Shown here: one piece after another, positions 54,347 to 59,573 of the stretch
How the letters are laid out: every line of letters starts with the position of its first letter
Position numbering within the stretch: the first letter of the stretch is position 1
Origin: Roseovarius litoreus
GTDB taxonomy: Bacteria; Pseudomonadota; Alphaproteobacteria; Rhodobacterales; Rhodobacteraceae
Length of the DNA stretch: 64,000 nt
Reading direction: 5' to 3'
Assembly: GCF_900142765.1 (NCBI RefSeq)
Contig: NZ_FRCB01000005.1
Location: forward strand, 186,001 to 250,000
Made by a program: the position numbers and the translations under genes
Notes under the pieces: model-generated
Seen by the model: only the letters and a program-made list of their open reading frames with translations
Database searches by the model: none
What the model was told of the DNA's origin: nothing

Positions 54347-54802
54347 ATGAGCGGCGAAACCGACCTCATCAAACTCTATTCGGCGCGCATCCTCGAACTG
54401 GCCGCCGATATTCCGCATCATGGCCGGCTCGACGCCCCCGACGCGACCGTGAAAAAACGCGCGCCGCTCTGCGGCTCGACCGTCACGGTCGATATCTGCA
54501 CCGATGGCAGCACCATCACCGACTATGCCGCCGAGGTGAAGGCCTGCGCGCTTGGACAGGCCGCAGCCTCCGTCGTGGGCGCCCATATCATCGGCTGCAC
54601 CCCCGATCAGGTGGTCGCGGCCCGCGACGCGCTAAAGGAGATGCTCAAGGCCGATGGCCCACCGCCCGCCGCCCCCTTCGACGGGCTCGAGGTGCTCAGC
54701 CCCGCGCGCGACTACAAGAACCGTCACGCCTCGATCATGCTGACCCTCGATGCCGCCGTCGAAGCGCTCGAACAGGCCCGCGCGGCCCAGTCCTGCATCT
54801 GA
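54347..54802 (+). CDS. NifU/IscU-like iron-sulfur cluster scaffold protein
   Basis: The 151-residue protein has Cys42 in APLCGST and Cys67 in [13 protein letters not shown], the scaffold Cys pattern, though the third usual Cys is not in its normal place (another Cys is at 84 and one at 149). Family members hold nascent Fe-S clusters or are degenerate scaffold proteins. The neighbour hisI is a common partner in Rhodobacteraceae. Start is the Met at 54347 after AAAGGAAA. Confidence 0.85.
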
Positions 54803-54817
54803 CAGCGCCTCTCGCAT

Positions 54818-54853
54818 AAAAAAACCGCCGCACGCTCGGTCGAGCGGCGGCGG
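54818..54853 (-). terminator. Strong intrinsic terminator ending the SOS-type small gene transcript
   Basis: On the minus strand a long stem (CCGCCGC and CGCTCG with complements, one bulged base) is followed by seven T. No minus-strand gene other than the 40-residue one at 55010-55132 is available to use it. The same site gives no T-run in the plus direction. Confidence 0.85.
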
Positions 54854-55009
54854 AAGGAAAAGCGGGCTCCGGTAACTCCGATTTGCGCATCAAGGGATCA
54901 GGCAGAAACCCTTGTCGGACCTCGGGACAGGTAAGGGGTCAGTCACATCCCGCTTGGGGACAAGGATGCAACAGGCGCGGTACGGATCGGAACGTCGCAG
55001 GCAGAAACT

Positions 55010-55132
55010 CTAGAACAGACCGGGCAGCCAAAGCCCGGCAATCAGCGTGACCATGAGCGCCGCCGCCCCCAGAAAATCTCCCAACAGGGTGTCCGAGGAT
55101 CGTATCGCGGTGGCCTTGATCTGACGAAACAT
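55010..55132 (-). CDS. 40-residue membrane protein behind a LexA box (SidA-like candidate)
   Basis: This small gene is too short for a routine 60-residue cutoff. It translates as MFRQIKATAIRSSDTLLGDF followed by LGAAALMVTLIAGLWLPGLF: a basic N-terminus and one hydrophobic helix (about residues 21-36). AAGGA lies 8 bases before the ATG. A perfect alphaproteobacterial LexA site is 64 bases upstream and a terminator lies downstream. It follows recG on the same strand by 143 bases. Caulobacter SidA is a 29-residue SOS-induced inner membrane protein that blocks division; similarity here is in architecture and regulation, not demonstrated sequence. Function is inferred. Confidence 0.8.
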   Translation of the reverse strand: MFRQIKATAIRSSDTLLGDFLGAAALMVTLIAGLWLPGLF

Positions 55133-55195
55133 GATCTGTTCCTTTCGCTGACGGTGTGTTGCTCCTTTGTTCTCATTTTCTTAACCATGTGTAAA

Positions 55196-55210
55196 GAACT
55201 TTGTGAGAAC
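55196..55210 (-). promoter_or_regulatory. LexA (SOS) box, GTTC-N7-GTTC
   Basis: On the minus strand the site is GTTCTCACAAAGTTC, the exact direct-repeat consensus GTTC-N7-GTTC of alphaproteobacterial LexA. A further GTTC (55217-55220) sits 6 bases away. It is in the gap between recG and the 40-residue gene, so it most likely represses that gene. Confidence 0.8.
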
Positions 55211-55275
55211 ATTTGCGAACTTTTCGGCATTTTCTGGCCAAGCTTCTGATTTCGCTTGCGAAAAATTCGGGGCGC

Positions 55276-59573
<4,298 letters not shown>

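Follow-up and report, generated by a model that had tools for sequence, protein, structure and literature searches.

The window, by which we mean the whole stretch of 64,000 nucleotides that was analyzed and which lies within contig C5 of a 3.93 Mb genome in 30 contigs, contains a gene of only 40 codons directly downstream of recG. This open reading frame (ORF) almost certainly encodes a real protein, the untranslated region behind it is, to judge from its conserved pairing, with near certainty a real structured RNA, and an exact match to the LexA consensus lies in front of it. We regard it as an even call whether these elements belong to a single transcript under LexA repression that yields both a bitopic peptide of the inner membrane and a C-rich structured RNA.

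The small gene and its product

The genes ligA and recG have the same orientation, with a 4-base overlap (57363-57366), and the small gene thus trails this pair of DNA repair genes. The features of the locus are listed in the order in which they are read on the minus strand, with the convergent neighbor last.

57363-59525, minus strand: ligA (NCBIfam)
55276-57366, minus strand: recG (NCBIfam), the conserved neighbor directly upstream of the small gene
55217-55220, minus strand: third half-site, giving GTTC-N6-GTTC
55191-55220, minus strand: extended operator GTTCGCAAATGTTCTCACAAAGTTCTTTAC, three GTTC half-sites with spacings of 6 and 7
55196-55210, minus strand: exact LexA box GTTC-N7-GTTC, GTTCTCACAAAGTTC, 63 nt before the ATG
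55157-55174, minus strand: GAGAACAAAGGAGCAACA, the second conserved block, which contains GAAC-N7-CAAC and follows TTTAC by 16 nt
55140-55145, minus strand: ribosome-binding site AAAGGA, 7 nt before the ATG
55010-55132, minus strand: 40-codon ORF, MFRQIKATAIRSSDTLLGDFLGAAALMVTLIAGLWLPGLF, ATG at 55132, stop codon at 55010-55012
54818-55009, minus strand: conserved structured 3' RNA, terminator included (covariation, covariance model, folding)
54818-54853, minus strand: intrinsic terminator CCGCCGCCGCTCGACCGAGCGTGCGGCGG-T7, a GC-rich hairpin
54347-54802, plus strand: convergent SufU-like gene on the far side of the terminator (sole model match, below the cut-off)

The first-pass annotation had described the 40-codon frame with its ribosome-binding site, the LexA box and the strong T-tailed terminator, and everything that it listed is present, but it overlooked the second conserved block and the structured 3' RNA. 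It was wrong in stating that no other gene on the strand could use the terminator, since the gene immediately upstream, recG, has the same orientation. No T-tailed hairpin was seen by eye between recG and the small gene, and read-through from recG can therefore also end at this terminator. A simple terminator scanner flagged nothing in 54780-55300, missing even the hairpin at 54818-54853, and was thus uninformative.

With a single sequence as query and a cut-off of E 0.1, 211 of 295 genomes of the family gave a match, and the best-scoring 90 of these 211 matches were fetched as loci. In 87 of the 90 a recG gene of the same orientation ended upstream, in 86 of these within 310 nt; it was not seen in the stretches fetched for L022, L082 and L083. 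Conservation of the frame, which the first-pass annotation had made the touchstone of its reading, was evident with a profile (A2) built from 45 members. Run at E 0.01 on 292 genomes of the order, this profile detected the gene in 267, nearly always as a single copy, and in 107 of 112 genera, and every genome listed in this search belongs to the Rhodobacteraceae. A check for divergent versions covered the sequence at the recG end in 20 of the 25 profile-negative genomes and revealed, in 18 of the 20, a GTTC-N7-GTTC box together with a short, hydrophobic but divergent ORF downstream of recG (ORFs read by eye). The other two, L321 and L330, had neither box nor short hydrophobic ORF within 420 nt after recG. 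Among the divergent versions, several g24 genomes encode a peptide of 31 residues that lacks the N-terminal part, others one of 43-45 residues, and g305 one of about 41 residues with a basic N-terminus and the sequence D(V/I)LGG. The box and the GAGAAC block were still recognizable in most of the divergent genera (L320-L339) despite the rebuilt peptide. Across 240 genomes of the class, profile A2 produced four hits, three of them in Rhodobacteraceae and one inside a 362-codon frame that is probably due to chance. With nothing credible outside the family, the gene is, within this sample, a trait of the family and not of the class.

An ATG start is present in all 90 fetched loci, and 76 of the 90 encode exactly 40 residues. 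Mean column entropies, computed for the 76 members that could be aligned by codon, were 1.13, 0.70 and 1.59 bits at the first, second and third codon positions, and the median pairwise dN/dS was 0.33 (2307 of 2850 pairs with finite dS), which is a rough value because dS is near saturation. Both measures indicate protein-coding (purifying) selection on the ORF. Substitutions are mostly synonymous and not, as the first-pass annotation had named as the adverse case, non-synonymous throughout.

D19, G22 and P37 do not vary among the 76 members with exactly 40 residues, while T15, L26, L30, L34 and L36 are nearly invariant in the 45-row alignment. Residues 1-18, including K6 and R11, carry a mean net charge of +1 (76 sequences), and from residue 20 to the end only one charged residue, at position 38, occurs across all 76 sequences. 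The N-terminal part is basic, hydropathy indicates one hydrophobic helix that reaches the C-terminus, and AlphaFold2 predicted a single helix from residue 2 to 39 (mean pLDDT 83), consistent with the one hydrophobic helix originally proposed. From charge and hydropathy we infer a bitopic peptide in the inner membrane, with a cytoplasmic N-terminus and a C-terminus flush with the periplasmic face. The conserved Asp would sit at the inner interface, and the small-residue face formed by G22, A23 and A/S25 would suit packing on a second membrane helix. The protein of the window matched no family in Pfam or NCBIfam. Weak family hits (four in NCBIfam, one in Pfam and two in PHROGs), each obtained with just one of the 45 members, were rejected as chance-like. 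The gene had been called unannotated, and indeed no family in Pfam, NCBIfam, PHROGs or Rfam claimed what was tested.

The operator and LexA sites of the family

The exact GTTC-N7-GTTC box recorded in the first-pass annotation is kept within 200 nt upstream of the start in 88 of the 90 fetched loci (it is absent in L030 and L074), and GTTC-N6-GTTC is additionally present in 83 of the 90. The third half-site was likewise described correctly, but the operator is larger than that description, reading GTTC-N6-GTTC-N7-GTTC-TTTAC. GTTC-N7-GTTC alone is not rare, with 80 sites in the 3.93 Mb genome versus 121 for the pattern read backwards, and therefore proves nothing by itself; conservation is what lifts the box above chance. 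Of 290 genomes, 167 contained the extended pattern GTTC-N6-GTTC-N7-GTTCTTTAC, always as a single copy, and none contained its reversed control.

Scanning titled genomes for the extended operator yielded at least 117 stretches, a set that overlaps with the 90 fetched loci in that some of the genomes are the same (L143/L031, L208/L025 and L248/L066). Among these at least 117 stretches, 112 carried an ORF matching the profile (E 1e-4) and 111 had recG just upstream. The five stretches that lack the ORF comprise L157 (Paenimyroides), L169 (Christiangramia) and L229 (Halorubrum), unrelated organisms whose operator matches are probably due to chance, as well as L211 and L232, where the operator lies 160 nt or less from the end of the fetched stretch.

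GTTC-N7-GTTC is the alphaproteobacterial LexA site (PMC3323433). Inspection of 20 of the 80 genomic boxes, chosen visually by features such as AT-rich spacers, placed it in front of recA, lexA, uvrA, a uvrD/pcrA-type helicase gene and a radical-SAM gene of the PA0069 family in the genome of the window. The box also precedes genes read by eye as imuA, imuB and mmcB, which NCBIfam at E 1e-4 did not name from the gene fragments submitted. Among relatives in the family, the best-scoring 30 lexA and 30 recA loci, drawn from 57 and 61 genomes, were compared; the box stood before lexA in all 30 distinct loci and before recA in 25 of 30, the exact box being absent at the other five. Because like boxes precede recA and lexA, we consider it very likely that LexA controls the small gene. 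A point against is that sites at the small gene have A immediately in front of the second half-site in 97% of cases, while T prevails there at recA (85%) and lexA (80%) sites, where A forms the minority. All eight SOS sites picked by eye in the genome of the window likewise have T at this position, while the A form GTTCTACAAAAGTTC occurs at two lexA promoters.

Several observations concern other LexA sites. The lexA promoters of several relatives (for example L294, L301, L309, L315 and L319) contain three to four tandem GTTC half-sites at 11 bp spacing, and chained LexA sites seem to be common in Rhodobacteraceae. The exact box before the PA0069-family gene (L100, C5:49300-51400; NF033668 matches the first 83 residues submitted) suggests that this radical-SAM enzyme is SOS-controlled. 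GTTCTATCTTTGTTC (L097, C4:173700-175900) separates the 3' end of a gene read by eye as dnaE2 from an ISC-type ferredoxin gene of opposite orientation.

The second conserved block was found as GAGAACA or GGGAACA at 16 nt past TTTAC in 74 and at 17 nt in two of the 76 loci, out of 90, that match both block patterns. The sequence GAGAACAAAG..GCAACA (55157-55174 and its relatives) is nearly invariant even though it would be operator or leader RNA. We considered that it could be a reverse LexA site, the promoter and start region, or a leader signal; its GAAC-N7-CAAC makes a degenerate reverse LexA site possible, and the block probably overlies the transcription start. A consensus sigma-70 promoter was not found at the small-gene locus.

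The conserved 3' RNA

About 155 nt separate the stop codon from the terminator in the window. As mere filler this stretch should drift, but instead it displays fixed blocks. A usable terminator was present in 82 sequences, and in an alignment of 40 of these the blocks follow one another as UUUCUGCC(UGCG), CCUGUCCC(C)AA, CUGCCUGUCCC, UGCCUC and the terminator. The RNA is laid out as a long closing stem (P1), a hairpin with a UGUCCC loop, a hairpin with a CUGUCC loop, a UGCCU region and the terminator. Its body upstream of the terminator is more stably folded than dinucleotide shuffles, with a mean z of -2.36 and values below -1 in 70 and below -2 in 48 of 82 sequences. CTGCC, TGCCT and TGTCC were counted 180, 191 and 130 times compared to 49, 34 and 28 times in shuffles (an enrichment of about 4-6-fold), and CTGTCCC occurred 84 times versus 3.4. 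The mean unpaired probabilities of the three 5-mers were 0.75, 0.79 and 0.64, respectively, against 0.43 for all 5-mers.

A covariance model (R1) was derived from 13 sequences. At E 0.01 it matched the strand of the ORF in 87 of the 90 loci, with short matches in L011 and L027 and no RNA match in L021, L030 and L082, and seven further hits corresponded to the terminator read on the opposite strand. At 1e-8 it still detected 79 of the 90 loci, including 66 of the 77 non-seed loci. In the genome of the window the small-gene locus scored 74.6 bits and the next best place had an E of 0.011. At E 0.001, R1 recognized 107 of the at least 117 operator-fetched stretches (72 of 80 and 35 of 37) and only 6 of the 20 divergent, profile-negative genomes.

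In a 79-row alignment (A5), standard pairs made up 94.1% of cells versus 74.8% after shuffling, 29 of 33 pairs were changed on both sides versus 22.6, and 419 cells carried double changes versus 98. The covariation score was 0.449 compared to 0.145 for shuffled and at most 0.070 for slid controls. These covariation figures are inflated, as A5 was fitted to the structure. We nevertheless regard the structure as established, given that the slid controls were far lower and that many long-range pairs are compensated, for example one pair of the long-range stem that appears as CG in 34, GC in 15 and UA in 11 sequences. The weakest element was helix 5, which forms the foot of the second hairpin, with 75.5% paired. 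P1 was also examined by folding each sequence on its own and requiring six or more of the leading 60 nt to pair with the 55 nt that immediately precede the terminator. All 69 non-seed sequences passed, but 146 of 207 shuffles did too, which makes this a weak test of P1 and leaves the reliance on covariation. MAFFT alignment of 40 3' regions alone recovered only the terminator stem, and the long stem emerged from aligning 13 closer sequences.

No match at gathering score was obtained in Rfam 15 with 54700-55400 of the window and six loci; the best sub-threshold match in 54700-55400 was suhB over the terminator (15.1 vs 41 bits). The target pattern GGGACAGG-N2-12-ATG was present in 61 of 61 genomes and commoner than its reversed control, which differs in make-up, and it gave no readable target. 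Self-regulation by the RNA was rejected as a candidate, as the duplex between the start region and the 3' RNA was no better than cross-species duplexes (the own duplex was lower in 34 of 82) and the start was paired with the 3' RNA in only 7 of 82 folds.

The 3' RNA could do no more than stabilize and terminate the small mRNA and the read-through from recG, with the protein alone being of importance. Structured 3' ends do protect mRNAs, and this RNA ends in the sole T-tailed hairpin seen by eye after recG. We consider this reading rather unlikely, because the long-range stem P1 and the loop sequences are conserved beyond what a hairpin calls for, and the enrichment and exposure of the CTGCC, TGCCT and TGTCC motifs exceed what stability needs. 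Alternatively, the C-rich loops might titrate an RNA-binding protein, which would make the RNA a sponge rather than a base-pairing regulator. UGCC and UGUCC are repeated in separate unpaired places, as in multi-site sponges of the CsrB type, but the motif is not GGA and the reading comes without a candidate protein; we judge it improbable. Whether the 3' RNA instead acts in trans we hold to be an evenly balanced question.

Proposed role and known systems

The two-product transcript may work as follows. Uncut LexA bound to the three-half-site operator would cover the promoter, and upon DNA damage RecA-driven cleavage of LexA would free the operator so that one transcript is made. The 40-residue peptide would insert into the inner membrane with its N-terminus inside, where the helix side bearing D19 and G22 would grip a membrane partner, most likely of the late divisome (FtsW/I/N), and delay division during DNA repair, as SidA does in Caulobacter. 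The 3' RNA, ending in the terminator, would persist as RNA, and its unpaired C-rich loops would pair with the G-rich ribosome-binding regions of other mRNAs. That the peptide acts as a brake on division or on a membrane target we rate at slightly less than an even chance.

The division-brake reading was adopted because SidA is the best analogue in build and control. The available part of PMC4211646 describes SidA of Caulobacter crescentus as an SOS-induced inner-membrane protein of 29 amino acids that interacts with FtsW. Both proteins are very short and alphaproteobacterial, and the 40-residue peptide is predicted to share the single-pass inner-membrane location and the SOS control; the divisome target, which was reported for SidA, would here be a matter of analogy. 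A conserved 3' RNA is present here, whereas none is mentioned for sidA in that part of PMC4211646. DidA, also from Caulobacter, resembles the peptide as a small single-helix membrane protein and is induced by DNA damage, in this case via DriD and independently of SOS; it has 71 amino acids with short cytoplasmic and periplasmic parts (PMC4211646, available part). We do not class the peptide as SidA, the likeness seen being one of general build and of the LexA-type operator.

The main rival to the division brake is a TisB-like SOS toxin, in which the peptide would depolarize the inner membrane and produce dormant cells, while the 3' RNA would control translation or an antisense RNA would serve as antitoxin (type I). 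TisB and DinQ of Escherichia coli are LexA-controlled hydrophobic peptides regulated by antisense RNAs, in which untranslated RNA parts matter, and their distribution is patchy. The LexA-type operator and the one hydrophobic helix in a 40-residue protein resemble these two, and type I mRNAs typically contain an untranslated part with structure. On the other hand, the peptides of TisB and DinQ are built differently and are not known to be accompanied by a family-wide conserved C-loop RNA; a near-universal, mostly single-copy and syntenic gene is unlike the patchy toxin loci; the helix is almost uncharged, given the lone charged position past D19; and pairing of the start region with the 3' RNA did not surpass the cross-species level. 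A toxin of this kind is thus unlikely. An operator serving a regulator other than LexA, for instance an OmpR-type activator on direct repeats, would fit the 10-11 bp period, the lack of a consensus sigma-70 promoter among our findings and the A before the second half-site, but is very improbable in view of the exact LexA consensus and of the tandem GTTC repeats at several lexA promoters of Rhodobacteraceae. With one extended site per genome, no separate regulon was seen. ChvI was rejected as the regulator, the motifs given for it in the available part of PMC9731502 (TTGC-N3-GCAA and GCC-N8-GCC) being a misfit to the operator.

The small gene combines an ORF under protein-level selection with a conserved structure outside the ORF, which are features of dual-function RNAs. 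SgrS/SgrT and RNAIII/hld are transcripts that each unite a short ORF and a base-pairing RNA, and RNAIII uses C-rich loops; they differ from the RNA described here, which has no Rfam match, in their stimuli and structures. The rhizobial small RNAs NfeR1 and alpha-r14 similarly present several loops with repeated C-rich motifs complementary to ribosome-binding sites, followed by an intrinsic terminator. They are not known to contain an ORF or to be linked to the SOS response and differ in motif and structure, and Rfam likewise returned no hit for the small-gene RNA.

Small membrane proteins induced by the SOS response are a known kind, and so are dual-function RNAs. Their combination under a LexA-type operator, the near family-wide presence and the RNA structure appeared in none of the searched libraries. 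We are not aware of any SOS regulon in which a single transcript of a core member joins a membrane brake to a conserved RNA that acts in trans, nor, to our knowledge, has a SulA or SidA been recognized in Rhodobacteraceae. No prior description of the gene or the RNA appeared in the titles or abstract openings among the open-licence literature matches listed, and the terms recG, SOS and lexA are absent from the main text of PMC4809877.

We put forward only tentatively that this LexA-controlled dual-function RNA constitutes a damage checkpoint throughout the Rhodobacteraceae, in which the peptide would halt division and the C-loop RNA would reprogram the translation of mRNAs belonging to the same response. 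If this is true, the SOS core of the Rhodobacteraceae (Ruegeria, Roseobacter, Sulfitobacter, Celeribacter and others) would hold an unnamed gene, almost always beside recG, and the SOS response of a family of ecological importance in sea and soil would include a conserved RNA. A single locus could then reveal how Rhodobacteraceae hold division after DNA damage.
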